A stretch of DNA of 23,372 nucleotides. It comes from a virus. Positions 1 to 23,372 of this stretch are shown piece after piece. The position numbers were made by a program, and so were the translations under genes. The stretch's first letter is position 1, and each line of letters starts with the position of its first letter. The stretch spans positions 1 through 23,372 of IMG/VR virus record IMGVR_UViG_3300008339_000498. One strand, given 5' to 3'. The notes under the pieces were generated by a model that searched no databases, was not told the DNA's origin, and saw only the letters and a program-made list of their open reading frames with translations.

Positions 1-1
1 A

Positions 2-2293
2 GTGGCAGCAGAAGGGGCCGCAGTATCTACAGGATTCTTAGCTACAGCTCTAAACGCAATTCCATTTGTTGCCATCGCAACAGGAATTGGATTATTAGCT
101 TATAATTTATTATCAGCAGGTGATAACTCAGAAAAGGCGGCTGAAGAACAAGAAAAATTAAGAAAAGAAACTGAGGAATATAACAAAAAACTTGATGAGG
201 AAAATACAAAGATAGGTGAAAGTGCTGGATCCTATCTTCAATTAGTTTTCCAATTAAAAAATACAAACGCAAATTCCAAAGAAAGGGTAAAATTGATCAA
301 TCAAATCAACGCAACTTATGGAACTACATTTAAAAATCTACAAGATGAAACGGCATTCCAAAATCAACTTAACTTATCTGTAAAAGAATATATTGCTCTT
401 CAGGTTTTGAAAGCAAGACAACAATCTAAGGAAAAAGAAACTCAAAAGGCAATTGGAGAATTGATTAAGGCTCAAGATGAATTAACAAAATTCGCAAGAG
501 AATATGGTGGTGTTGTCAACAAAAATGGAGAAATAGAAACTAAATGGACTCAACAACAGATTTCTGATTACGATTTAAAAAAATATGGTGTTTCAGTTTT
601 CACTGATACTCAAATTAAATTGAATTTTGAATTACAACGAGCCCAAGAAAGAGCTGAAGGGTATGCAATTTCTGCCGGTGATCTTCAAAAAGAAATTGAT
701 AAACTTACTAATAACGGTAAAAAATATGTACCTGTAGTTCAAAACACAGTTAAAACAACTGAAACTGCTACCGAGGTAACTGATCAATATGCTGGTGTTT
801 TAGAAAAAGCAAACAATAAGTTAGAGAGACAAAGAGCAATTCAAGAAGCTAATGAGAAATTCAATACCGATAGAATTAAAAATACATTACAAAAAGACAT
901 TGAACTTGTAAATCAATTGTATGGTGATGAAAAACAAAAAATTATTGATAGGGCTACAAAGGCTGAGATTGACAAATACGAAGATAAATTCAAAAAAGAG
1001 GGAAAAACAGAAGAACAATTCTTTAAAAAAAGAGAAGAAATTTTAACCAATTGGACAAAATATGCGTTAGATGAAGAAGTAGCATTATTCAATCAATTAG
1101 ATGAATATAGAAAACAAGATGTCACCAAACTTCAAGAAAATTATAATTCTAAAGAAGAACTTATTAAAGAAAGTACAAAAAATATTTTAACTAATACACA
1201 ACTAATTCAAATAGAATTTGAGAAATCAGAAGCAATTAGACAAGCTGAAGAGGGTAAAAAGACAGAAGAAGAAAAAAATAAAGCAAGAATTGAAGTTAGA
1301 TCAAAATTTGCTGATAAGGAAATTGAACTTTTAAAGAAAAATCTTGAGGAACAGAAAAGAATAGCGAAACTTAATTTAGATATTATATTACAAGATGAAT
1401 CAAAAAGTTTATCTGAAAAAGAACAAGCACAAGCTGAATATGATCAGAAGGTTATTCAAATGGCTCAACAAACTGCCGATAAAATTAATGAAATTAATGA
1501 TGGTATTAAACCACCAATTCCTGATGAAAAAACTTTAGAGGAAAAAATTAATAAATCGGTTGAAAAAATTTCAGAATATGTAGACGCTATAGCAACATTA
1601 TATAGTCATTTAGAAAATACGATCAGAATGATTTCTGAACAACGTTTTAAAAATGAAGAAGAACGTATAAATAATGTCTATGAAAAAGAAAAAGAAGCCT
1701 TAGAAGGTCAGTTAAATGCTAATCTTATATCAAGAGAACAATATGACAATAAATTACTTGAATTAGAACAACAAAAAGAGGCTGAAAGTATCATTCTAAG
1801 AAAAAGAGAATTTGAAACTAATAAGAGGTTAAATATGGCTAATGCTGTAATAGCAGGTGCTCAAGCTGTATTACAGGCATTAGGTTCATCAGCCCCTCCT
1901 GTTAATATTATATTAGCGGCATTAGTTGGTGGATTAGCGGCTGTTCAATTTGGTGTGATAGCAAATGAACAATTTACGGCAGCAGAAGGAGGTATTGTAC
2001 CTGGTATAGGACCAGGAAATATTGATTCAGTTCCGTCAATATTAGCACCAGGTGAGTTTGTAATCAATTCTAAATCAGCACAAATGTACCCTCAGTTATT
2101 AAGTAGTATAAATGAAATGGGTGGGGGTAAAAAATTAGTTCCTGATTTACCACCTTCAAATGCTCAAGGATTACCAACAACAGTATTCCAACAAGATAAA
2201 TCTCAACAACCTATCAGAGCATATGTGGTAGAAACGGATATTAGTGATTCACAGAAACGAGTGAATAGAATAAAACGAAGTGTTGAATTTTAA
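2..2293 (+). CDS. Tail tape measure protein, C-terminal part (5' end outside window)
   Basis: This is most of a phage tape measure protein, which sets tail length and is threaded inside the tail tube. The visible 763 residues open with a hydrophobic segment (about residues 18-40). A stretch typical of Bacteroidota phage tape measures follows (SKERVKLINQINATYGTTFK, about 92-111), then long Lys/Glu/Gln-rich coiled coil (about 140-600). A second hydrophobic patch lies near 615-660. The C-terminus carries the characteristic tape measure ending EGGIVPGIGPGNIDSVPSIL followed by APGEFVINS. The reading frame is open to the first base of the window and the GTG at position 2 is only the first possible start, so the real start is probably upstream and the protein longer. 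The next gene, a head protease, starts 12 bases later. The family call is solid; the start is not known. Confidence 0.85.
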   Translation: MAAEGAAVSTGFLATALNAIPFVAIATGIGLLAYNLLSAGDNSEKAAEEQEKLRKETEEYNKKLDEENTKIGESAGSYLQLVFQLKNTNANSKERVKLINQINATYGTTFKNLQDETAFQNQLNLSVKEYIALQVLKARQQSKEKETQKAIGELIKAQDELTKFAREYGGVVNKNGEIETKWTQQQISDYDLKKYGVSVFTDTQIKLNFELQRAQERAEGYAISAGDLQKEIDKLTNNGKKYVPVVQNTVKTTETATEVTDQYAGVLEKANNKLERQRAIQEANEKFNTDRIKNTLQKDIELVNQLYGDEKQKIIDRATKAEIDKYEDKFKKEGKTEEQFFKKREEILTNWTKYALDEEVALFNQLDEYRKQDVTKLQENYNSKEELIKESTKNILTNTQLIQIEFEKSEAIRQAEEGKKTEEEKNKARIEVRSKFADKEIELLKKNLEEQKRIAKLNLDIILQDESKSLSEKEQAQAEYDQKVIQMAQQTADKINEINDGIKPPIPDEKTLEEKINKSVEKISEYVDAIATLYSHLENTIRMISEQRFKNEEERINNVYEKEKEALEGQLNANLISREQYDNKLLELEQQKEAESIILRKREFETNKRLNMANAVIAGAQAVLQALGSSAPPVNIILAALVGGLAAVQFGVIANEQFTAAEGGIVPGIGPGNIDSVPSILAPGEFVINSKSAQMYPQLLSSINEMGGGKKLVPDLPPSNAQGLPTTVFQQDKSQQPIRAYVVETDISDSQKRVNRIKRSVEF

Positions 2294-2305
2294 CAATTAG
2301 ACAAG

Positions 2306-3277
2306 ATGATTAAATATGTATTTAAGGATATGGAAGAACCAACTCTATATCTTGATTTTGAAGAGGATAATATGAATGAAGGGATGGATGCTATCTCATT
2401 TGTAGATAGACCAGCAACTGATGTTCAATGGAAAATATTTGAGACCATAGAGGACAGTTATAATGATTATCCATTAATAGCAAGTGAAAATGCTTGTAGA
2501 GCCTTAAAATATAAAGAGAAACATCCTGAGATTGATTGTGGAACACGTACAGGTTGGTCAAGAGCCAATCAATTATGTGGTAGAAGAAACATTTCAATTG
2601 AGACAATTGCTCGCATGGCTTCATTTAAGAGACATCAACAAAATAAAGATGTTCCTTATGATAAAGGATGTGGTGGAATTATGTGGGATGCTTGGGGTGG
2701 AGATGTTGGTGTTGAATGGGCTATCCGTAAAATGGAGAGAATCAACAATGAATTACGTATGGCAGGTTTTAAGAAACAAGAATTTAGTGATCTTAATGAA
2801 GAAAAACGAATGGTAACTTCACCTGTTATGTTGGCAGAAACCCCAATCTTACGTTATAATCCTGATCTTGGTAAATATTGGGTTAAATTCAAACCCGAAA
2901 CCATTGAAAAAATGATGAGGAAATATTTCAAAGAAAACAAAATACACAAGGTTAATACAAATCACGATCCAAAATCTCGCAAAGATGGGGTATATATGGT
3001 GGAAAGTTATATTGTTGGAGATAGAAATGAATCAAAAGTTTTTCCTGATTTACCTGAAGGTACTTGGATGGCAACATTTTATGTTGAAAATGATGAGGTT
3101 TGGGACCAAATCAAACAAGGGGAGTTCAATGGATTTAGTTTAGAAGGTTATTTTATTGAGAAATATGAGGACGATATGATTGCTCGTATAGAAGAAGAAT
3201 TAGAAAGCATACTTACTTCAACATATAGTGATGAAGATAAGGAATTAAAAATTAAAAAATTATTAAATATTAAATAA
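2306..3277 (+). CDS. XkdF-like prohead serine protease with an inserted domain
   Basis: Predicted capsid maturation protease of the XkdF type (323 aa), expected to cleave scaffold and capsid precursors inside the procapsid. The N-terminus has the usual acidic start and AISFVDRPA (29-37). The protease-like part runs from MVTSPVMLAETPI (169-181) to GFSLEGYF (276-283). In it, His220 (NHD) and Ser278 (GFSLEG) are in the right places for the catalytic His and Ser; this is an inference from family pattern. Between the two lies an extra domain (about 56-146) with ASENACRALKYKEKH, RANQLCGRR, IARMASFKRHQ and MWDAWGGDVGVEWA. I recognise this as a recurrent module in Bacteroidota phage proteins, of unknown role, with four Cys at 64, 78, 91 and 122. 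The stop overlaps the next start as TAATG. Scaffold and major capsid genes lie close downstream, as expected for a prohead protease. Confidence 0.75.
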   Translation: MIKYVFKDMEEPTLYLDFEEDNMNEGMDAISFVDRPATDVQWKIFETIEDSYNDYPLIASENACRALKYKEKHPEIDCGTRTGWSRANQLCGRRNISIETIARMASFKRHQQNKDVPYDKGCGGIMWDAWGGDVGVEWAIRKMERINNELRMAGFKKQEFSDLNEEKRMVTSPVMLAETPILRYNPDLGKYWVKFKPETIEKMMRKYFKENKIHKVNTNHDPKSRKDGVYMVESYIVGDRNESKVFPDLPEGTWMATFYVENDEVWDQIKQGEFNGFSLEGYFIEKYEDDMIARIEEELESILTSTYSDEDKELKIKKLLNIK

Positions 3278-3705
3278 TGAAACATTATCTAATGATATTC
3301 TTCGCCTTTGTGTCTCCTTTATTTCCATTGGCGTTATTGGTGTCTTTATTTTCCATTATAGACACTTTTGTAGGTCGTTGGTATGCTAAGAATACCAATC
3401 AAGAAATAACAAGTAAGAAGACACGTATTGGTCTCACACATAAACTTATAACCTATTTTGTTGTGTTGATAAGCGCTTACGGTATTGATTACGTAATTGT
3501 GAATGAAATAGCAAGAAATTACATTTGGTTTGATTGGGCTTTTACCAAGTTCTTTGCTTCCGTATTGATATGGGTAGAATATACATCAATTGATGAGAAG
3601 ATTAAGTGGGTAAAAGGTAAAGGACTTACCGATAGAGTGATAGAATTTGGGAGATCTCTCAAAAAAATCATTGGTTTTGGTAAGGAATTAAATCCTAAAA
3701 ACTAA
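3277..3705 (+). CDS. Holin-like small membrane protein
   Basis: A 142-aa membrane protein resembling the phage_holin_4/toxin-secretion holin family, which makes the inner-membrane lesion that releases or activates lysin. Three hydrophobic segments are visible: residues about 5-29, 53-75 and 85-102. They are separated by a short basic loop (EITSKKTRIGLTHK). The tail is cytoplasmic-type, basic and amphipathic (IDEKIKWVKGKGL onward). A hydrophobic start, a DTFVGRWYAK segment, a GIDYVIV segment and then a helix with WVEYTSIDEKIK is the order seen in that family. The start codon overlaps the upstream stop (TAATG), which suggests coupled translation with the protease. No lysin gene is adjacent or visible in the window. 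The holin call rests on topology and family resemblance only. Confidence 0.6.
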   Translation: MKHYLMIFFAFVSPLFPLALLVSLFSIIDTFVGRWYAKNTNQEITSKKTRIGLTHKLITYFVVLISAYGIDYVIVNEIARNYIWFDWAFTKFFASVLIWVEYTSIDEKIKWVKGKGLTDRVIEFGRSLKKIIGFGKELNPKN

Positions 3706-3749
3706 AAGTATTAAACAATAAATAAATAAAAATAATTAAAACAAAAGTT

Positions 3750-4535
3750 ATGAACACAAAAACAAACATTTTAGCCAAAATCAAGGAGTTGTTCGCAGAG
3801 CAAAAAATGATGGAGGATTACACAGCAGCAACAAATGAGATCATTCGTTGTTTGAGTGATAGTTTAGCGGTTGGATCAAAAGTAGCACAAGTAATTGGTG
3901 GAGTTGAAACTGATCTTCCCGACGGAAGTTATCTATTGAACAATGGAAAAACCATTAAAACTGTTGGTAACGTCATCAAAGAAATCAACGAATACAGAGC
4001 CGAAGAAAATTTGGGTAAAACAGAAATGGGATCTGATACCGCAAGTTCAGCCCAAGAAGACGCAATCGTAGCTGAGGAGAATATGGAAGATTACAAAAAT
4101 GAAATTATGACCAAACTTGTTGACGGAACTGAAGTTAAAATCTTATCAAAAGGTGAGGCTTTATCTGTTGGTGATGAGGTTTTGGTTAAGGACGCTGAAG
4201 GTAATTTTACAAAAGCACCGGCTGGAGAGCACAAGTTGGAAGGTGGATTAGTTATCTATGTTGATGAATTAGGTTTTATCAATGAATTAGAAACTGAAGA
4301 AACTGAAGACAAAGATGAAATGAAAAATATGTTTGAAGCAATTTCTCAATTAACCATACTAGTGGGTGAGTTGAAAAAAACTATTTCAAATGTAAGTGAA
4401 AAAAATTCTGAATTAACAGAAAAATTTGAGAAATTTTCAAAGGAACCATCTGTTGAATCAGTAACTAAAAAACAAGTTTCTCTATCTAAAACGGCAGATA
4501 AAGTAGAGAGAGCGAAATTCTTCGGAGGAAGATAA
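3750..4535 (+). CDS. Probable capsid scaffold/head protein with an internal duplication
   Basis: A 261-aa acidic protein directly before the major capsid gene, where scaffolds usually lie. Two diverged copies of one small beta domain are visible. Copy 1 (about 39-80) has LAVGSKV, LPDGSYLLNNGKTI and VIKEIN. Copy 2 (about 138-180) has LSVGDEV, APAGEHKLEGGLVI and FINELE. The copies are joined by a Glu-rich helical linker. Residues about 186-230 form a predicted coiled coil, and the end is basic (KVERAKFFGGR). A coiled coil with a basic C-terminus that could bind capsid protein fits a scaffold, but a decoration or head-associated protein is possible. The gene has its own A-rich leader (3706-3749) rather than a stop/start overlap, which suggests independent and strong initiation. 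No Shine-Dalgarno is visible. Confidence 0.55.
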   Translation: MNTKTNILAKIKELFAEQKMMEDYTAATNEIIRCLSDSLAVGSKVAQVIGGVETDLPDGSYLLNNGKTIKTVGNVIKEINEYRAEENLGKTEMGSDTASSAQEDAIVAEENMEDYKNEIMTKLVDGTEVKILSKGEALSVGDEVLVKDAEGNFTKAPAGEHKLEGGLVIYVDELGFINELETEETEDKDEMKNMFEAISQLTILVGELKKTISNVSEKNSELTEKFEKFSKEPSVESVTKKQVSLSKTADKVERAKFFGGR

Positions 4536-4570
4536 TAAACAAAAATAAACTTAAATAAAAATTAACTAAA

Positions 4571-5497
4571 ATGGCATTAAACGTCGCAGGTTTAACAGCA
4601 TACGTGGATCAAGAGCGTATGGCTTTAATCAAAAAAATGATTTTGGGTGGTCGTTCAACACAATTTTTGACAATCCAACCAGACATTAAGTCAGCAGCAT
4701 CAATCAACTTGTTGTCTTCTGATTTAGTAGCACAAGCAGGTGGATGTGGATTCAACGATGAAGGTGAAACTATCTTAACTCAAAACACACTTAATGTTTG
4801 TCCTTTAAAGGTAAACGAAAGTATCTGTTTGGATACACTTGAGCAATACTACACTCAAGCAATGATGAACCCTGGTTCATATAACACTCAAATTCCTTTT
4901 GAGCAAATCTACGCTGAAGAGAAAGTAGCTCAAATCAGTTCATTAATTGATACATTGATTTGGCAAGGTAACACATCTTTGACTGGTAACACAGGATTAT
5001 GTAATGGATTTATCAAATTAGCAAACACAACTTATTCAGGTTCTGTTGTTAATGGTAACGTAAGTTCAGCAACAGCAATTACAGCGGGTAACATCGTTGG
5101 TTTAGTTGATGATGCTATCCAAGTAATTCCTGTTAACATCGTAGCAATGGATGACTTATACTTATACTGTGGTTATGACTTCGCAAGAACTTATTTCACA
5201 GCATTGAGAAACGCTAACCTTTACAACTATCCATCTGTAGAAACAGGAGCAAATGATTTTATGATCACTATCCCTTCTTCTAACGTTAAATTGGTAGCGG
5301 TTAAAGGATTGAACGGTACAAACAAGTTCTTCATCTCAACTAAATCTAACCTATTCTTTGGTTGTGACTTATTGAATGACTATGAGAACTTTGAATTGTG
5401 GTATTCTCAAGATTTCCAAGAAGTACGTATGGCTTCTAAATGGAAATCAGGTGTGAACGCAGCATTCTGGGAATATGTAGTATACTTCAAATTGTAA
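4571..5497 (+). CDS. Major capsid protein
   Basis: A 308-aa protein identified as the major capsid protein by position (after protease and scaffold, before tail tube), size and overall pattern, consistent with an HK97-type fold. Visible features are an N-terminal helical arm (QERMALIKKMILGGRSTQ), a core with FEQIYAEEKVAQISSLIDTLIWQGN, and a C-terminal half ending in RMASKWKSGVNAAFWEYVVYF, a typical closing strand. Several Cys (in GGCGFN, NVCPLKV, ESICLDTL, GLCNGF, YCGYDF, FFGCDLL) are unusual for a capsid protein. Synonymous codon use is richer in C-ending codons (AAC, ATC, GAC) than in neighbouring genes, as expected for a very highly expressed gene. The leader is A-rich (TAAATAAAAATTAACTAAAATG). 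A hairpin follows the stop. The start is the only sensible ATG. Confidence 0.8.
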   Translation: MALNVAGLTAYVDQERMALIKKMILGGRSTQFLTIQPDIKSAASINLLSSDLVAQAGGCGFNDEGETILTQNTLNVCPLKVNESICLDTLEQYYTQAMMNPGSYNTQIPFEQIYAEEKVAQISSLIDTLIWQGNTSLTGNTGLCNGFIKLANTTYSGSVVNGNVSSATAITAGNIVGLVDDAIQVIPVNIVAMDDLYLYCGYDFARTYFTALRNANLYNYPSVETGANDFMITIPSSNVKLVAVKGLNGTNKFFISTKSNLFFGCDLLNDYENFELWYSQDFQEVRMASKWKSGVNAAFWEYVVYFKL

Positions 5498-9241: not shown

Positions 9242-9268
9242 AAAAACCCACCTATTCAGTGGGTTTTT
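9242..9268. terminator. Bidirectional terminator between convergent operons
   Basis: AAAAACCCAC (9242-9251), a 7-base loop and GTGGGTTTTT (9259-9268) form a perfect 10-bp stem with A and T flanks on opposite sides, so it can terminate in both directions. It lies 18 bases after the stop of the plus-strand gene ending at 9223. Its right arm is inside the last codons of the minus-strand gene ending at 9252. Confidence 0.85.
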
Positions 9269-9953
9269 CTATTTTCTCAACATAAAAAGCACCAATATCT
9301 TTATTCTTGGTTATAGATTGTGAGATATAATTCTTACTATATTTATAATTTAAGTAGTTTTGAATTTGAGATATAGTTTGAAATGGTATTGAAACACTAT
9401 CATCATTTCTATTTTTTAAGATATATTTAACTCTTTTGAATACAGCAGTTTTCAATTTCGTATATACCTTCTGTCTCATTCTACCGTATTCGTGTACTTT
9501 TAATTGAAGTATATCTTTGATTCCGTATTCATCGTAATCTTCCAACATCAATTTTACCATACTCTTTTCTTTATCACTAAACTTTTTACTCTGAATTGAT
9601 TTTAATAAGATCTCCCGAAGTTTCTCCTTGTCAATGGTATCAAGTATCGTCTGATCTTCAAAAGGTTCGTATGGCTCATCAGAATACTTCATTTTGGATT
9701 TAGCAATATGATATCCAGCACAAAAGTTTTTAACAATTAAAAATGTGTATCCTTTTATTCTTTCATAATCATCTTCCAATACCCCCTCATTCATTTTTTG
9801 TATTATCTTAACCCAAGTATCTTGAATTATTTCCATTCTATCTATGTAAGGAATGTTATTACATTGTCTCATCCCTAGTACTAATCCCCGTATCTGTTTC
9901 TGAAGTTGATTGTAACTCTTCATTTTTTTGTTTTCTTTTTTTATGCCATTCAA
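9252..9953 (-). CDS. Divergent sigma-70-family-like regulator with extra C-terminal HTH-like module
   Basis: A protein of up to 233 aa that resembles an ECF-type sigma factor and could redirect host RNA polymerase to phage promoters. The region-2-like part is about residues 36-86 (DRMEIIQDTWVKIIQKM, IKGYTFLIVKNFCAGYHIAK). The region-4-like part is about 124-176 (KFSDKEKSMVKLMLEDYDEY, then GRMRQKVYTKLKTAVFKRVK). A C-terminal extension (188-228, PFQTISQIQNYLNYKYSKNY, ISQSITKNKDIGAFYVEKI) looks like a NUMOD1-type helix-turn-helix, which is unusual for a sigma factor. The listed start overlaps the upstream HNH gene by 95 bases. The internal ATG at 9923 (residue 11) follows a very A-rich stretch typical of starts here and is my preferred start; one at 9872 would overlap by only 14. 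The function call is from pattern only. Confidence 0.5.
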   Translation of the reverse strand: MNGIKKENKKMKSYNQLQKQIRGLVLGMRQCNNIPYIDRMEIIQDTWVKIIQKMNEGVLEDDYERIKGYTFLIVKNFCAGYHIAKSKMKYSDEPYEPFEDQTILDTIDKEKLREILLKSIQSKKFSDKEKSMVKLMLEDYDEYGIKDILQLKVHEYGRMRQKVYTKLKTAVFKRVKYILKNRNDDSVSIPFQTISQIQNYLNYKYSKNYISQSITKNKDIGAFYVEKIEKPTE

Positions 9954-10413
9954 TTAAATTTGATTTCCATAATCCATTTGAGAATGCGTGCTTCATATTA
10001 TAACTTCTTGTACACCATTCCAAATTTTCAATTCTATTATCTAATTTATCTCCATTGATATGATTTATTTCTTTTTTATTTTCAGGATCATCATTCCAAA
10101 TAAAAGTTAGAGCAATTAACCTGTGGTGTAAATATGTTGTAGAATCTATTGTTAATACTCTATATCCTTTTCTATCTGTTCTAATTGATTTTTTCTTATA
10201 GGTTTTACAACTTCTAATTTCACCTTCTTTATTGATTAAATATTTTCCTTCAAATCCTTTCATATCAAACCATTCTACTTCGTTTACTTTCATTTCTTGA
10301 AGTCGTTGAAGGGTTCTCTCCATTTTTCTTTTATTGTTGTGGAAATCGTTTAATTCTTTTACTCTCTTTGGATTGTTTTTTCTCCATTGAATATCTTTCT
10401 CTCTCTTCGTCAT
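9859..10413 (-). CDS. NUMOD4-HNH homing endonuclease
   Basis: A 184-aa free-standing homing endonuclease, a selfish gene that nicks or cuts DNA lacking it. Residues 1-40 are basic and helical. A NUMOD4 DNA-binding motif follows (EVEWFDMKGFEGKYLINKEG, 45-64, then EIRSCK). The HNH_3 nuclease is at about 95-140 with LHHRLIALTF, NHINGDKLDNRIENLEWCTR and YNMKHAF; the key residues are His97, His118 and Asn126/Asn130. It ends with a charged tail (about 155-184) whose DNA is shared with the start of the sigma-like gene in another frame. It lies 10 bases after the replisome-organizer-like gene on the same strand. All key HNH residues are present, so it is probably active. Confidence 0.85.
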   Translation of the reverse strand: MTKREKDIQWRKNNPKRVKELNDFHNNKRKMERTLQRLQEMKVNEVEWFDMKGFEGKYLINKEGEIRSCKTYKKKSIRTDRKGYRVLTIDSTTYLHHRLIALTFIWNDDPENKKEINHINGDKLDNRIENLEWCTRSYNMKHAFSNGLWKSNLIEWHKKRKQKNEELQSTSETDTGISTRDETM

Positions 10414-10423
10414 ATTATTAAAA

Positions 10424-10846
10424 TTATAAGTTATTCCATTTACCGAAATTTAATTCAACCTCATTTTCATTAACATTTTCATTAACATTAACATTATCAT
10501 TTACATTAACATTATCATTTACATTTACATTAGGTTGTTTTTCAATCAACCTGTGGTTGTTTTCAAAATCAACTATGGTTGTTTTATGTTGTTTTTTTGC
10601 GTTACTATTACCTTTTGGTGCCCCACCTTTTTTACCATCTTCTCTTCGTTTCATATTTGAATCCAATTGTGGTTTTATTAATGTCCATATTATTCCACAA
10701 ATACCGGTTAAATTGGGGGTTGTTCCGTATAAACAATATTCAAACATTGAATTATATAAATTCAACTGATCCTGTTTATCTTCAACGTTTTTGATTGCCT
10801 CATAGAATGATCTATATACGACAAAACTTTCTACTGATTTTTCCAT
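10424..10846 (-). CDS. DUF6291-like replisome-organizer-type protein with Asn-Val repeat tail
   Basis: A 140-aa protein whose first ~80 residues match the DUF6291/phage replisome organizer N-terminal pattern: SFVVYRSFYEAIKNVEDKQD, LYNSMFEYCLYGTTPNLTG, IWTLIKPQLDSNMKRREDGK and KKGGAPKGNSNAKK. Such proteins are thought to help load replication proteins at the phage origin. Residues 105-128 are a low-complexity N-V/N-D/N-E run encoded by twelve 6-bp units. After it only about a dozen residues remain, so a larger C-terminal domain found in many related proteins may be missing. The HNH gene starts 10 bases further on, which raises the possibility of truncation when it was inserted. It is transcribed from the divergent region 10847-10957 with an A-rich start context. 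Confidence 0.6.
   Translation of the reverse strand: MEKSVESFVVYRSFYEAIKNVEDKQDQLNLYNSMFEYCLYGTTPNLTGICGIIWTLIKPQLDSNMKRREDGKKGGAPKGNSNAKKQHKTTIVDFENNHRLIEKQPNVNVNDNVNVNDNVNVNENVNENEVELNFGKWNNL
10461..10532. repeat. Twelve tandem 6-bp units (WCATTW) inside a coding region
   Basis: Twelve consecutive hexamers of the form (A/T)CATT(A/T) run without interruption for 72 bp. On the minus strand they encode 24 residues alternating Asn with Val, Asp or Glu in the gene at 10424-10846. The six-base period means that unit gain or loss keeps the frame and adds or removes two residues. Confidence 0.9.
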
Positions 10847-10957: not shown

Positions 10958-11230
10958 ATGAATAAGACAATTTTAGAATTTATATTGGACGCTGTTATTG
11001 CTCACAAATTTGACGATAACACACTTGGTGAAGAAATAAGACAACTTGAAGAAACAATTAGATCCATTATAAACATAGAAAAGGATCCAATATTAGAGGT
11101 TTTAGACACGTTGATAAGTGATAACCCCTCTAATGAAGATTTAGGTCATAAGATCCGAAGTATAGCCCCTTTAATTTTATTAGCATTATATGTTGAAACG
11201 GACATTAGTGGAGATAGCGACACCGAGTAG
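10958..11230 (+). CDS. Small acidic helical protein, function unknown
   Basis: A 90-aa acidic protein with no recognised family. It appears mostly helical and contains two similar short stretches, DDNTLGEEIRQLEE (about 19-32) and NPSNEDLGHKIRSI (about 56-69), suggesting an internal repeat. The end is hydrophobic (APLILLALYVETDI, about 70-83) but too short and mixed for a confident membrane segment. It is the first gene of the rightward early-type cluster, starting about 16 bases after a promoter-like -7 element. Its stop codon lies inside a perfect palindrome (11227-11240), and it overlaps the longest version of the next gene. Confidence 0.55.
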   Translation: MNKTILEFILDAVIAHKFDDNTLGEEIRQLEETIRSIINIEKDPILEVLDTLISDNPSNEDLGHKIRSIAPLILLALYVETDISGDSDTE

Positions 11231-11711
11231 TATATACTACGAGATAATGAGAAATATTATCACCCCAAATTTCCATCTTATACCTGAACTAATCAGTGAA
11301 TTATCTATTGGATTTTTGGAGAATGAAGAGAAAGTAGATCAGATAATCAAGGACGGGTGGTTCAAATACTACTTCATTCGTTCGTGTGTAAACCAAATTA
11401 AATCTTCAACGAGTGGATTCCACAAGAATACCAGAATAAAAGATTTCCAATATATAGATAATCTTGAAATTATTGATGATACCGATATAGAAATCAAGCA
11501 AGATAAAGAAGAAAAATACCTCATCATAGATAAAATCTATACAACAATTCCAAAAACCTACTTCCAAGAATTCCTTTGGCATGAATATTTTCTCAAAGGA
11601 AAAACACATAGACAAATAGCCAAAGAAAATAATATCTCTCATTGTCTATCATTCCACGAAATAAAGAAAATAAAAGTGGAAATTATGAAAAAAATACCAA
11701 AAACCATTTGA
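11190..11711 (+). CDS. Sigma-70-family-like phage transcription factor
   Basis: A protein of up to 173 aa resembling a widespread small sigma-like protein of Bacteroidota phages. The region-2-like part is about residues 31-82 (IPELISELSIGFLENEEKVD, FKYYFIRSCVNQIKSSTSGF, HKNTR). The C-terminal region-4-like helix-turn-helix is about 125-168 (FLWHEYFLKGKTHRQIAKEN, ISHCLSFHEIKKIKVEIMKK). It may direct host RNA polymerase to middle or late phage promoters. The longest start (11190) overlaps the previous gene by 41 bases. An ATG at 11247 (residue 20, giving 154 aa) begins 16 bases after that stop and just past a palindrome, and is equally plausible. A strong Bacteroidota-type promoter overlaps its 3' end and serves the next gene. 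Confidence 0.6.
   Translation: MLKRTLVEIATPSSIYYEIMRNIITPNFHLIPELISELSIGFLENEEKVDQIIKDGWFKYYFIRSCVNQIKSSTSGFHKNTRIKDFQYIDNLEIIDDTDIEIKQDKEEKYLIIDKIYTTIPKTYFQEFLWHEYFLKGKTHRQIAKENNISHCLSFHEIKKIKVEIMKKIPKTI
11227..11240. promoter_or_regulatory. 14-bp perfect palindrome, possible operator or hairpin
   Basis: GTAGTATATACTAC reads the same on both strands. It spans the stop codon of the 90-aa gene (TAG, 11228-11230) and ends 6 bases before the ATG at 11247 of the sigma-like gene. A dimeric regulator could bind it, or in RNA it could fold as a 5-bp stem with an ATAT loop that affects reinitiation. Its role is unknown. Confidence 0.4.
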
Positions 11712-12410: not shown

Positions 12411-12752
12411 ATGATAACACAAGAATTTTACAACCACTGTTATTTTTTAGCCACATTATCAAGAATGGGTAAACCTCATGCCTTAGATATGGAAAATGTG
12501 ATTAGAGAAAAGATTGATCCAAAGTATAGGGTATGTACCAAATGTTCCGCTCAAATGAAACACGGACAAAGTATGATATTAAATTGGTTAGCAGATCAAG
12601 AGATATTTGAAGAGGTGATACCAACTATCACACCACTACCTGAAGTATCGTTATTTGAGTTCCCTGAAGTCCCTATAGATGTTGATGAGGTAGAAGCAAA
12701 GAAAGTTGGATGTACCAAATGTTCTAAACGAAAAAAAACAACTAAATCGTAA
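12411..12752 (+). CDS. Small protein with two CTKCS motifs, possible zinc-binding protein
   Basis: A 113-aa protein of unknown function with two identical CTKCS motifs, at residues 42-46 and 101-105. Together they could form one four-Cys zinc site across a Pro/Glu-rich linker (TITPLPEVSLFEFPEVPIDV, 72-91). The first motif continues as AQMKHGQSMILNWL, a pattern I have seen in small proteins next to Bacteroidota phage terminases; the basic tail (KRKKTTKS) follows the second. It opens the packaging operon and its stop overlaps the small terminase start (TAATG). A packaging or DNA-recognition accessory is possible but unproven. Confidence 0.6.
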   Translation: MITQEFYNHCYFLATLSRMGKPHALDMENVIREKIDPKYRVCTKCSAQMKHGQSMILNWLADQEIFEEVIPTITPLPEVSLFEFPEVPIDVDEVEAKKVGCTKCSKRKKTTKS

Positions 12753-13126
12753 TGAGTTTATCAGCAAAACACAAATCATTCTGTGATGAGTATCTATCTA
12801 ATGGATTGAATGCTACTCAAGCATATAAATCTATCTACAAAGTCAGTGATAAAGTTGCTGGAGCAAGTGGTCCAAGATTGTTAGATAATGTTAGAATTAA
12901 AGAATACCTCCAACAAGAAGGAGAAAAGACAGCACAACGACTACAAATAACCAAAGAAGAACTCTTAAATGATTTGGTGGAAATCAAAAATAACAACAAG
13001 GGGGTAAGAGATGCTACCGCTATGAAGGCGATAGAACTTATTTCAAAGATGTCAGGATTTGATGCTCCAACAAGACAAGAGATTTCAATACAGGAACAAC
13101 CATTGCTTCCTGATGATGATGAATGA
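12752..13126 (+). CDS. terS: Terminase small subunit (Terminase_2 type)
   Basis: A 124-aa DNA-recognition subunit of the packaging terminase. The N-terminus matches the Terminase_2 helix-turn-helix domain: LSAKHKSFCDEYLSNGLNAT, QAYKSIYK, then GPRLLDNVRIKEYLQQ. A helical oligomerisation region follows (KEELLNDLVEIKNNNKGVRD, ATAMKAIELISKMSGFDAP). The acidic C-terminus (PLLPDDDE) probably contacts the large subunit. The family length is normal. Start and stop overlap both neighbours: TAATG upstream and ATGA (13123-13126) into the large subunit, indicating coupled translation. Confidence 0.85.
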   Translation: MSLSAKHKSFCDEYLSNGLNATQAYKSIYKVSDKVAGASGPRLLDNVRIKEYLQQEGEKTAQRLQITKEELLNDLVEIKNNNKGVRDATAMKAIELISKMSGFDAPTRQEISIQEQPLLPDDDE

Positions 13127-14310
13127 ATTATAAACAGACAACAGCATTAAAGAAAATCAGATCCCTTAAGAATAGAATTAAGGTAGTACAGGGGGGTTCA
13201 TCAGCAGGAAAGACAATCAGTATTCTAATCCTGTTGATTGATAGATGTATTAAAAATCCTGGTCTTGAAGTATCTGTTGTTTCTGAAAGTATCCCCCACC
13301 TTCGTAGAGGAGCCATACGTGACTTCTTAAAGATTATGAAGGATACAGGTAGGTATATTGCTTCCAACTATAACAAAACTCTCTTACGATACGAATTTAC
13401 AAATGGATCCTATATTGAATTCTTCTCTGCTGATAGTGAAGAAAAACTACGTGGGGGTAGAAGACAGATCCTATACATCAATGAGTGTAATTCAATTAAC
13501 TATGAAGCCTATCTTCAGTTAGCCATCCGTACAAGTGGGGACATATATCTTGACTACAATCCATCAGCAAGATTTTGGGCTCATACAGAGGTTATAAATC
13601 AACCTGACACAGATTTCATCATTCTCAATTATAAAGACAATCAGGCGTTATCTGATGAGGTTGTAAAGATGTTGGAGAGTAATAGAGAGAAAGCCAAGAC
13701 CTCAACCTATTGGGATAACTGGTGTAAGGTATATCTTGATGGAGAAATAGGACAAGTGGAGGGGACCATCTTCAATGACTATGAGACCATAGATAAGATC
13801 CCCGATGAAGCAAGATTGTTAGGATATGGATTGGACTTTGGATATAGTTATGATCCTGCTGCTCTGATTGCTCTATACAAATACAATGATGATATTATTG
13901 TAGATGAGGTTGTATATCAGACAGGATTATTGAATTCTGAACTATCATCTCTAATGAAACAATATAACGTCTCTGGTGAGATCTTTGCTGACTCTGCTGA
14001 ACCCAAGTCCATCCAAGAGTTAAAACGATACGGACATCAAGTTAAATCAGTTGAGAAGGGGAAAGACAGTGTGAACTATGGAATACAAATACTCCAACAG
14101 AAGAAAATGTTTGTAACCAAGAGATCAGAGAATATTCTTAATGAATTTCAGAAGTATATGTGGAAGAAGAATAGAGATGGTGGATATGATACAACCCCCA
14201 TTGATGCTCATAACCACGCCTGTGATGCTTTAAGATATGTGGCTATGTCCAAATTGGGGGTAAGAAAAGAAGGAAGTAAGAGACCTATAATGGGATTTAT
14301 GAACGTATAA
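13123..14310 (+). CDS. terL: Terminase large subunit (PBSX-like ATPase-nuclease)
   Basis: A 395-aa packaging motor that pumps DNA into the prohead through the portal and cuts the concatemer. The ATPase domain has Walker A GGSSAGKT (24-31), a Walker B-like ILYINE (116-121) with the catalytic Glu121, and DYNPS (144-148) as a probable coupling motif. The RNase H-like nuclease domain has GLDFG (Asp238), FADSAEPKS (Asp290) and DAHNHACDALRY (Asp361, Asp368). Size and motif order fit the PBSX/Terminase_3 type. It overlaps the small subunit by 4 bases. The protein looks complete and active. Confidence 0.93.
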   Translation: MNYKQTTALKKIRSLKNRIKVVQGGSSAGKTISILILLIDRCIKNPGLEVSVVSESIPHLRRGAIRDFLKIMKDTGRYIASNYNKTLLRYEFTNGSYIEFFSADSEEKLRGGRRQILYINECNSINYEAYLQLAIRTSGDIYLDYNPSARFWAHTEVINQPDTDFIILNYKDNQALSDEVVKMLESNREKAKTSTYWDNWCKVYLDGEIGQVEGTIFNDYETIDKIPDEARLLGYGLDFGYSYDPAALIALYKYNDDIIVDEVVYQTGLLNSELSSLMKQYNVSGEIFADSAEPKSIQELKRYGHQVKSVEKGKDSVNYGIQILQQKKMFVTKRSENILNEFQKYMWKKNRDGGYDTTPIDAHNHACDALRYVAMSKLGVRKEGSKRPIMGFMNV

Positions 14311-14354: not shown

Positions 14355-14948
14355 ATGATACAGATTAATGTACAAGTAGATGACGAAGAAGTAAAAAATT
14401 ATGAATTTCCAAGTGATTGGTCAGAAGTTACTATAGAACAATTTAGTAATATATATTCAATTGATACGAATATCCATCAAGGACCATTCTATTCATTTGA
14501 GTTGATTCATCAATTATCAGGAATTGATAGAGAAATTATCGAACAAATTGATTTTGATGATTTTAAGCAATTGATTAAGGCTTTAGAATTCTTTTATAAG
14601 CCAGTTGAGGACTTAAAAAAAGAGTCAATTATTGTGGATGGGGAGGAATATTTTCTCTATTCAGAGTTTAATAAATATACTGCTGGTGAAATTATCTCAA
14701 TTGAGACGATATTACAATCAGTGAATGGTGATGTAAAGAAGGTAATGCCTAAATTATTATGTATATTTTTACGTAAGAAAAAGGAAAATGGTAACTTGGA
14801 AAAATATAATACTAAATTTATGTCTCGTGAAGAGAAATTTAAGAAGATTAAAATTAGTGAAATTAACCACATCTTCAATTTTTTTTTAACTGGAAGAGAT
14901 TCGTTACTCAACAATATGACGGACTCTTCCAAAAACAACGAGAAGTAA
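14355..14948 (+). CDS. Tail assembly chaperone, short form (gpG-like)
   Basis: A 197-aa protein interpreted as the short form of a tail assembly chaperone that keeps the tape measure protein soluble and helps nucleate the tail tube. The N-terminus has FPSDWSEVTIEQFSNIYSID (18-37), a pattern of such chaperones, then helical segments (YSFELIHQLSGIDREIIEQI, FDDFKQLIKALEFFYKPVED). Near the end (14882-14888) the frame contains U_UUU_UUA, where part of the ribosomes should shift to the -1 frame and make a longer form ending at 15154. Non-shifted ribosomes continue 19 codons past the slip site to the stop at 14946-14948. The chaperone call rests partly on this G/GT arrangement, which is a hallmark of the function. 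Confidence 0.7.
   Translation: MIQINVQVDDEEVKNYEFPSDWSEVTIEQFSNIYSIDTNIHQGPFYSFELIHQLSGIDREIIEQIDFDDFKQLIKALEFFYKPVEDLKKESIIVDGEEYFLYSEFNKYTAGEIISIETILQSVNGDVKKVMPKLLCIFLRKKKENGNLEKYNTKFMSREEKFKKIKISEINHIFNFFLTGRDSLLNNMTDSSKNNEK
14882..14931 (+). promoter_or_regulatory. -1 programmed ribosomal frameshift signal
   Basis: The heptamer T_TTT_TTA (14882-14888), in frame with the gene at 14355, is a classic X_XXY_YYZ slippery site. Two bases later a stem begins: TGGAAGAG (14891-14898) with CTCTTCCA (14924-14931). It is extended after a bulged A by TTCGTTA (14900-14906) with TGACGGA (14917-14923, two G-T pairs) and a 10-base loop. Such a stem is a common stimulator. The 2-base spacer is shorter than usual, so the lowest pairs may be open when the ribosome pauses. 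Confidence 0.8.
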
Positions 14949-15154
14949 CTACCGAAAATGAGAGATTTAAAAAGCTCTTGGGGGATAAAAAGAAAATGGA
15001 TAACCGATATGTATGGTTGGATTTTGTATACACACTGATGGAAAAATTGAATCTAAAAGAAGATGAGGTGTATAAAATGAGTTATGTACACTGTCTGAAT
15101 TGGTTGGGATATTTTAAAAATAAAGAAGAATTAAAGAATAAAAACTCATTATAA
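14888..15154 (+). CDS. -1 frame extension of the tail assembly chaperone (gpT-like domain)
   Basis: This is an 88-codon open frame in the -1 register relative to the chaperone gene, reached only by slippage at 14882-14888. The long product would be 178 residues from the zero frame plus 88 here, 266 aa in all. It begins NWKRFVTQQYDGLFQKQREV and contains NERFKKLLGDKKKMDNRYVW, LDFVYTLMEKLNLKEDEVYK and MSYVHCLNWLGYF. The -1 frame has a stop at 14864-14866, so it opens only just before the slippery site. It has no ATG until 14996, in mid-domain and without a leader. By analogy with lambda gpGT, the extension should bind the tail tube subunit. Its stop overlaps the next start (TAATG), which confirms that ribosomes arrive here in this frame. 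Confidence 0.8.
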   Translation, partial: NWKRFVTQQYDGLFQKQREVTTENERFKKLLGDKKKMDNRYVWLDFVYTLMEKLNLKEDEVYKMSYVHCLNWLGYFKNKEELKNKNSL

Positions 15155-16047
15155 TGGCTATAACAAACGTAATAACATTAAATCAATTGATAAAATGGTT
15201 CCAACTGTTCCAACAGAATAACTATTTTTTGAATGATTTTGGATTTGGGGAACCTTACGATATCAGTACTTCAAGACAAATGAATTTCCCATATATGTGG
15301 GTTATGATGAACGATGATAGTACCATAGCTCAAGCGGGTCACAATAAAACTGCTATACCTGAACTATCATTTTCCATTATGTTTATGGATAAGATCAATA
15401 TTCAAGAGAACTATTTGGATACAAATGGATTCCCATCAGACAATTCACAAGAGATCTTGAGTGATATGTTACAAGTTCTACAGGATTTATTAACAGATAT
15501 AGCCCAAAATTGGCAGACCTATGGAATATTTATTTCCCAAGATGTTACATTTTATCCTGCTGTAGACGAGACCACAGATAAAGCAACAGGTATTGTTGCT
15601 AGAATTATATTGAAATTAAAATATGTGAACTGTATTATACCTGAAAATCCATATTTTGATACCCCCACTCCAACACCAGCACAAGTAACAAGTACTCCAA
15701 CACCTACTGCTACACCAACACCTACCCCTACTCCATCACCTGTAACAGTATATCAATATTTTACGGCTAATGTAACAGGAGCAACAAGTCAACAAATCAA
15801 TATACAATGTTGGGATACATTTTGGAATATAGGGCCTGGCCCAAATCAATGTGCATGGACAGGTGAAATATTTGTGACAGGATCAACAGGTACAGTTGTT
15901 AACCCAACATTTACATATCCACTTGGACAACAAACTTATGTATTAGATCTTTCTTCAAGTTTGGGGGTTGGTCAAACAATTGCTAATATTAGTTGTTGTT
16001 GGAATGTTTCAATACCATGCCAGAATTATATTCCTAATTTCATATAA
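15154..16047 (+). CDS. Tail completion/terminator-like protein with Thr-Pro linker and extra C-terminal domain
   Basis: A 297-aa two-domain protein. Residues 1-165 match a Bacteroidota phage tail completion/minor tail family: LNQLIKWFQLFQQNNYFLND, FGFGEPYDISTSRQMNFPYM, WVMM, SFSIMFMDKIN and SQEILSDMLQVLQDLLTDIA. That family normally ends near here. Residues about 168-196 are a Thr/Pro linker (TPTPTPAQVTSTPTPTATPT). A beta-rich domain of about 100 residues follows, with Cys in IQCWDTFW, NQCAW, SCCWN and PCQNY. The add-on may be displayed on the virion surface. It is translated by coupling to the frameshifted chaperone frame (TAATG). The next annotated gene starts 20 bases after its stop. Confidence 0.6.
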   Translation: MAITNVITLNQLIKWFQLFQQNNYFLNDFGFGEPYDISTSRQMNFPYMWVMMNDDSTIAQAGHNKTAIPELSFSIMFMDKINIQENYLDTNGFPSDNSQEILSDMLQVLQDLLTDIAQNWQTYGIFISQDVTFYPAVDETTDKATGIVARIILKLKYVNCIIPENPYFDTPTPTPAQVTSTPTPTATPTPTPTPSPVTVYQYFTANVTGATSQQINIQCWDTFWNIGPGPNQCAWTGEIFVTGSTGTVVNPTFTYPLGQQTYVLDLSSSLGVGQTIANISCCWNVSIPCQNYIPNFI

Positions 16048-22280: not shown

Positions 22281-23372
22281 ATGTCTGATAAGATTGAATA
22301 CTCACGATTATTATTAAAAAGAACTGGTCAAACAGGACAAGTTCCAACCATACCAACAGGGACCACACTAAATGAGATGATTCCTACTGACTTATTTGTT
22401 GGTGAAATGTATTGTAACGTTGCCGATGATGCTTTATGGATTAGAACCGACAATGGGATTTATCCTATATCATTATCAGGTATTACTGCTTCAACCCCTG
22501 ATTTAGGTCAAGTATTATTTCAAGGTAATTTTACCAATGGAGAAGATATTATTGTATCTGCTGGTAATACCATTGTATTTTCAGGATTAAGTTCAGGATC
22601 AAGTACAACATTTTTAGCATTAGATGCTTCAGGTAATACAATTACTGTAACAGGTAGTACAGGAGGTACGGGTACATCTGGAACTTCGGGGACATCAGGA
22701 ACAGATGGTACAAGTGGAACTAGCGGATCATCGGGATCAAGCGGATCATCAGGGTCATCAGGATCAAGTGGAACATCAGGAATGTCAGGAACTGCTGGTA
22801 CAGATGGTTCGTCAGGTATAAACGGAACTTCAGGTACAAATGGGACTTCAGGTACAGATGGTTCGTCAGGTATAAACGGAACTTCAGGAACTTCAGGTAT
22901 TGGAACAAATGGTACTTCAGGTACATCAGGACAAGATGGTTCAATAGGGATACAATATCAATATACATCAGGATCAACATCACCATCAAATCCATTAGGT
23001 TCAAAATTTAATTCTAATGGAAGTGTGGTATATGATTCTTTTGTAAATCTTGATGTAACTTATCCATCAGGTATAACTCAATTTTCATTTTATTATTATT
23101 CTAATGGAACCGATTATACAAACTATCTAAATTATTTAGTTTCATCAGTTAATTTAGGAGCTCCATTATTTTTACAAATAGAAAGTAAACAAGGTTATGG
23201 TGATAAAATTATTTATAGCGCTTCATCAGCAACCACTTATGTTTCTGGTGGACATACTTGGATGACCTTTAATGTATCATTAGTTTCAGATTATATAAAT
23301 TTTGTATTTGTTAACTCATCACAATATGATATTTCATTTAATCTTTATGGTAAAAATGGAACTAATGGTACA
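22281..23372 (+). CDS. Collagen-like tail fibre protein (3' end outside window)
   Basis: An open frame of 364 codons with no stop before the window end. The N-terminus (MSDKIEYSRLLLKRTGQTGQ, then PTDLFVGEMYCNVADDALWI, about 35-54) resembles the attachment/stalk domain at the start of many phage tail fibres. Residues about 131-223 are Gly-X-Y repeats, mostly GTS, GSS, GTD, GTN and GIN, with one break in register (GIGTN) and no proline. They should form a collagen-like triple helix stabilised by Thr/Ser. A beta-rich domain follows (about 224-358), and the sequence re-enters Gly-X-Y repeats (GKNGTNGT) at the edge, so at least one more collagen segment lies beyond. It probably binds host surface polymers, as the last gene of the tail cluster. 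Confidence 0.8.
   Translation, partial: MSDKIEYSRLLLKRTGQTGQVPTIPTGTTLNEMIPTDLFVGEMYCNVADDALWIRTDNGIYPISLSGITASTPDLGQVLFQGNFTNGEDIIVSAGNTIVFSGLSSGSSTTFLALDASGNTITVTGSTGGTGTSGTSGTSGTDGTSGTSGSSGSSGSSGSSGSSGTSGMSGTAGTDGSSGINGTSGTNGTSGTDGSSGINGTSGTSGIGTNGTSGTSGQDGSIGIQYQYTSGSTSPSNPLGSKFNSNGSVVYDSFVNLDVTYPSGITQFSFYYYSNGTDYTNYLNYLVSSVNLGAPLFLQIESKQGYGDKIIYSASSATTYVSGGHTWMTFNVSLVSDYINFVFVNSSQYDISFNLYGKNGTNGT
22797..22888 (+). repeat. 38-bp perfect direct repeat in collagen-like coding region
   Basis: The 38 bases at 22797-22834 recur exactly at 22851-22888, a period of 54 bp, or 18 residues and six Gly-X-Y triplets. Synonymous positions are identical too, which points to recent duplication by slippage or recombination rather than protein-level constraint. 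Confidence 0.9.

Follow-up and report, generated by a model that had tools for sequence, protein, structure and literature searches.

The DNA analysed here (the window) is a linear virus record of 23.4 kb (23,372 nt). The gene under study lies among late genes on the + strand, with the following features in and around it.

13123-14310, + strand: gene for the terminase large subunit (terL; Pfam Terminase_3C, 3e-13), directly upstream of the frameshift gene
14355-14948, + strand: zero-frame open reading frame, from its ATG to the stop at 14946-14948, for a short product of 197 aa; relatives are 35-88% identical
14879-14887, + strand: run of nine T's (T9) that carries the slip site; the sole run of at least 8 T's in the window
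14879-14885, + strand: in-phase T_TTT_TTT heptamer, the conserved and most likely slip site
14882-14888, + strand: in-phase T_TTT_TTA heptamer, usable, without conservation in relatives
14888-15154, + strand: -1 frame past the junction, 88 codons and a stop, encoding the C-terminal domain; dN/dS about 0.1 beyond the overlap
14891-14931, + strand: bulged stem-loop of 8 bp plus 7 bp, starting 5 nt after T_TTT_TTT
15154-16047, + strand: next gene, whose start overlaps the -1 frame stop; a homologue is present in the loci of 83 of the 85 relatives

The short product comprises an N-terminal domain and a poorly conserved tail of 20 residues, and the predicted fusion, or long product, has 266 residues. 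From 14867, just past an upstream stop (14864-14866), the -1 frame stays open until it ends at 15152-15154, in a stop codon that overlaps the next gene's ATG (15154). No ATG, GTG or TTG was found in the -1 frame of the window before the slip site. An earlier note on this DNA had described an 88-codon -1 frame lacking a usable start upstream of the slip site; this description holds in the window, and all of the note's coordinates (the end of the reading frame at 14948, the -1 stop, the upstream closure, the heptamer and the stem) were confirmed.

The terminase small and large subunit genes together span 12752-14310; portal and protease genes are among the other late genes, and the left end carries a tape measure fragment. 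A map of window 1-5497 against relatives L034-L037 has a permuted gene order, in which the tape measure gene comes before the genes for the protease, a holin-like protein, capsid, tube and portal. Three genes on the - strand (9252-10846), among them an HNH endonuclease gene with NUMOD4 and a gene for a DUF6291 protein, run opposite to the late genes between the head genes and the terminase. The product of 11190-11711 is reminiscent of a small sigma-factor-type protein and had no Pfam match; look-alikes lie upstream of terL in L054, L102, L105 and L132. The gene at 15154-16047 encodes a low-complexity TPTPTP tail, and its homologue in L034 and L035 has 821 aa with collagen-like repeats, as in window 22281-23372.

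Evolution of the two frames

Relatives were gathered in five scans of a viral collection, which gave 85 distinct sequences with the window included. They fall into 34 clusters when the first domain is grouped at 70% identity, and identity extends down to about 35%. The earlier note had looked to homologues for the fate of the -1 frame, and the comparison bore it out: in 84 of the 85 sequences, the C-terminal domain follows the N-terminal one in the -1 frame and is conserved as protein. The single frame-0 case (L083) has a deletion inside the C-terminal domain. Among four representatives, dS was 0.77-1.24 and dN 0.07-0.09 in the -1 frame past the zero-frame stop, whereas dN exceeded dS in the zero frame beyond the overlap. 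Thus, the -1 frame evolves as a protein, the zero frame beyond the overlap does not, and both domains are under selection. The zero frame of L009 and L010 terminates five codons past TTA, whereas their -1 frame is uninterrupted.

In L083 (1704-2408), the short protein is intact despite the deletion in the C-terminal domain, which may mean that the long form was lost in nature or that the sequence is misassembled. DNA-level phase variation was dropped because no relative joins the frames at the run. A +1 shift for L067 was also dropped, as the C-terminal domain of L067 is in the -1 frame. L133 sits in a Sulfurovum bin, possibly through a binning error, and no host was assigned on that basis.

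The slip site, the stem and the slipping machine

An in-phase T_TTT_TTT is found in the overlap of 81/85 sequences and is absent from all 13,700 other codon positions in these genes, an enrichment far above chance. The run measures T7-T10 in 81 of the 85 relatives and has 9 or 10 T's in 76 of them. L179 has T5 only but carries the canonical heptamer A_AAT_TTT at the same place. The conserved X_XXY_YYZ heptamers in the overlap are 81 copies of T_TTT_TTT and one of A_AAT_TTT. L060 and L154 have T5, without a heptamer or a long run, yet both keep the -1 domain. At the junction of L060 (651-1456; also in L061-L063) and of L154, the sequence is CAT/TAT TTT TCA, with no standard heptamer.

The slippery site had been given earlier as T_TTT_TTA, which is indeed in phase at 14882-14888. 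However, the last codon of the site in relatives is TTA, TTG, TCA, TCG, TCT or ATA. Because the TTA codon varies, T_TTT_TTA is not the conserved heptamer, and this role falls to T_TTT_TTT at 14879-14885. The distance to the stem is 5 nt from T_TTT_TTT and only 2 nt from T_TTT_TTA, and a spacer of 5 nt falls within the spacing common among -1 signals. In the window, either heptamer is usable. The predicted junctions differ accordingly, and the junction peptide may read NFFFNWK as well as NFFLNWK, so that NFFL joined to NWKR no longer stands as the sole expected form.

The bulged stem of 8 bp and 7 bp described in the earlier note is the minimum-energy fold from 14891 (-17.5 kcal/mol). In the window, it exceeded shuffled sequences (z -3.95 to -6.1, with -3.95 for dinucleotide shuffles) and synonymous recodings of the -1 frame (z -4.0). 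Its conservation among homologues was found in part. Against synonymous recoding, the window's clade gave z values of -1.5 to -4.1, and values below -2 also came from L059, L102, L105, L108, L119 and L132, but about half of the 45 sequences tested showed no stem beyond chance, many T9/T10 relatives among them. The lower 8 bp are near-invariant in 12 close relatives. The upper stem of these 12 shows one double change, A-U to G-C, and covariation was not above that of shuffles. The Leu codon in the right arm is CTC throughout, while CTC makes up 2% of the Leu codons in the window; this invariance fits selection on pairing, but the codon lies inside the overlap, where the zero frame is also a constraint. 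An Rfam search with the stem gave no match.

These features suggest how one start could give two proteins. Most ribosomes would read the zero frame and make the short protein of 197 residues. A minority would slip back one base on U_UUU_UUU (14879-14885) or on the overlapping U_UUU_UUA, helped by the stem 5 nt downstream, and would make the 266-residue fusion with its conserved C-terminal domain, predicted to be helical. We infer the ribosome, rather than RNA polymerase, as the slipping machine, and likewise the ratio of the two products.

The programmed -1 frameshift proposed in the earlier note stands as far as the conserved -1 transition to a long fusion is concerned, but slippage by RNA polymerase on the T9 run had not been considered. 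Here, T9 would be copied as ten U's in some transcripts, which would reach the -1 frame without any slip by the ribosome. RNA polymerase of Escherichia coli slips on runs of at least 7 T's (PMC6260861), a minimum that the window exceeds. The run has 9 or 10 T's in most relatives although translation needs only 7, but a Phe codon of the -1 frame accounts in part for the T's beyond the heptamer. There is also a weak tendency to keep nine T's, scored as a T added in front when one is lost behind (Fisher test on clusters, p 0.04). For transcription, the downstream stem that the window's clade conserves should be of no consequence; on the other hand, many relatives without a stem carry T9/T10. Five relatives keep shorter runs in phase, exactly T7 in L111 and T8 in L089, L105, L108 and L144, which speaks against the polymerase, and A_AAT_TTT with T5 in L179 fits the ribosome and not polymerase slippage. 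A homopolymer long enough for the polymerase is present in 81/85 members, the window included, and so not in the whole family (T5 only in L060, L154 and L179). Therefore, we consider it quite likely that ribosomal slippage is the main mechanism in the window, where polymerase slippage could act alone or in addition. As an explanation of the frame transition without a ribosomal slip, polymerase slippage seems rather unlikely.

Genome position and identity of the product

By BLAST, 63 of 81 loci have terL upstream of the frameshift gene, at a median distance of 44 nt. Reading by eye showed a terminase-like reading frame as the closest large upstream gene in seven of the remaining 18, once 830 nt away; the upstream terminase was confirmed in L132, which was among those loci. 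The frameshift gene lies at least 8 kb from the tape measure gene, which the window has at its other end and which is also distant in the two relatives holding both genes. The frameshift gene, then, is not located between the tail-tube and tape measure genes. The lambda-like arrangement seen in it earlier has to be given up, since the gene directly follows terL, away from the tape measure gene. Neither of the two relatives holding both genes showed a further frameshift pair upstream of the tape measure gene. For the neighbouring genes p15154 and p16240, no clear family emerged.

AlphaFold2 modelled the N-terminal domain with a pLDDT of 84; of the C-terminal domain, the last 50 residues were well modelled and the remainder poorly. 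The best fold matches of the N-terminal domain in BFVD were unnamed phage proteins. Named matches included a tail assembly chaperone at E 6e-4 and, at E 0.044, a tape measure chaperone frameshift protein, both with TM-scores below 0.4. A match to Pfam Phage_TAC_7 scored 14.8 bits against a cut-off of 25. No curated chaperone family was reached at the cut-off in Pfam and none in NCBIfam, and neither domain had a relative in the PDB, whether compared as a sequence profile or as a fold; the weak Z-scores of these comparisons were set aside. The identity as a tail assembly chaperone, claimed earlier, is thus plausible from the fold matches, while the profile matches are very weak and below cut-off. 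Taken together, the fold matches, the weak Phage_TAC_7 match and the two-product design make a tail assembly chaperone our best guess, and a likely one by analogy. As with E/E+E' of phage P2 and G/GT of lambda, many short copies would bind the tape measure protein and few long copies would recruit tail-tube subunits.

Alternatively, the frameshift pair could be real and serve head completion, packaging or tail termination. The constant place after terL, which is kept even with divergent terminases, would suit such a role, as would neighbours without assigned function and a tape measure gene far away. However, the fold matches that carry a name are to tail chaperones, a short and a long product from a frameshift is the design typical of tail chaperones, and no competing frameshift gene was seen upstream of the tape measure gene in the two relatives. 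We consider this role unlikely, and the tail chaperone is retained as the preferred identity.

A combined reading is that the family switches by lineage between the ribosome (a shorter run or A_AAT_TTT, with a strong stem) and polymerase slippage (T9-T10, without a stem), and that the product serves a terminase- or neck-linked step and not tape measure chaperoning. If the switching is true, the same two-product output would be kept by either machine. The dnaX gene of bacteria, which is not a phage gene, offers a likeness in that homologous genes may use either slippage machine at a homopolymer; according to Larsen 2000, as cited in PMC3711429, the slippage is ribosomal in some bacteria and transcriptional in others. 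For the present family, we hold the combined reading to be improbable.

Known systems, isolated relatives and significance

The lambda gene adjoins its tape measure gene and uses the heptamer GGGAAAG. The window gene has the two-product logic in common with lambda gpG/gpGT (PMC5009743) but does not adjoin the tape measure gene, and no sequence relation between the two is shown. HIV had been named as the precedent for the heptamer; the closest one is gpE/gpE+E' of phage P2, made by a -1 slip on TTTTTTG, with the tape measure gene T as neighbour (PMC3091744). As in P2, a short and a long protein share one start, and a heptamer with six T's, close to where the first gene ends, is the site of the -1 shift. 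In contrast to the window gene, which follows terL, P2 E is immediately before the tape measure gene; P2 has no downstream stem, whereas the window's clade has one, and its heptamer is TTTTTTG where the family has a run of T7-T10. P2 gpE, used as a single sequence, did not match the family profile. The class of mechanism is thus already known from P2 and lambda, while the gene family is new and its genome position is unusual.

A search with tblastn, using the window protein and two distant relatives, gave no match in 50,697 phage records. Isolated relatives were found through a fold search and profile comparison. The layout recurs in gp38/gp39 of the Nonlabens (Persicivirga) phages P12024S and P12024L, genes that lie directly after terL and include a -1 reading frame; P12024S has T9 with an in-phase T_TTT_TTT at 23579. 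The family profile matched both domains (E 7.5e-5 and 0.006), and the fold match had an E value of 3e-9. They differ from the window gene in showing only about 15% identity and in being annotated as two hypothetical proteins, with gp39 covering only the last part of the -1 reading frame. In the P12024S record (L180, NC_018271), gp38/gp39 at 23136-23830 are one frameshift gene split by annotation, with T9 at 23578-23586. The prediction that gene callers would split the gene had, therefore, already come true in P12024S.

A more distant candidate is a 293-aa protein of the Flavobacterium phages 2A and FPSV-F7 (Unahavirus), with a weak profile match that runs collinearly through the junction (E 0.003, probability 11%). 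It is encoded by one uninterrupted reading frame, with no frameshift in those records. The copy in phage 6H has a fold match to the window gene and sits in the tail module upstream of the tape measure gene. In the 6H record (L181, NC_021867; 10352-10927, - strand), gp10 is truncated and has two bases more than in 2A, 23T and the FPSV phages.

As annotated, gp39 of P12024S would make the C-terminal domain a protein of its own, with initiation within the -1 frame, for instance at an internal Met. For the family, this is very improbable: the first internal Met of the -1 frame in the window is Leu or Ile in many relatives, conservation of the C-terminal domain reaches upstream of it to the slip site, and a start codon in the -1 frame ahead of the slip was seen in a single relative. 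Homopolymers are error-prone, but a sequencing or assembly error in the T run that splits one ordinary gene, which the earlier note had raised, is ruled out by the comparison of the 85 sequences, which come from many samples, nearly all have the same -1 relation and include zero-frame tails that vary or stop early. As judged from the sequences, a fusion protein is the only reading that fits the frame, selection and start-codon data, and the frame transition is real and conserved and appears to be programmed. Overall, we somewhat favor a ribosomal -1 frameshift that makes a short and long pair, probably a tail assembly chaperone set, as the explanation of the whole.

The nearest cultured relatives of these phages infect Flavobacteriia, and the sequences make up a large family of late genes that lacked annotation and are predicted to be expressed by frameshifting. 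The gene is missed or split by gene callers and by current profile libraries, and the heptamer together with the -1 domain gives a simple annotation handle for the family. P12024S is a cultured phage in which the frameshift product, the ratio and the mechanism are measurable. These data suggest that the tail chaperone of these phages should be sought after terL and not beside the tape measure gene.
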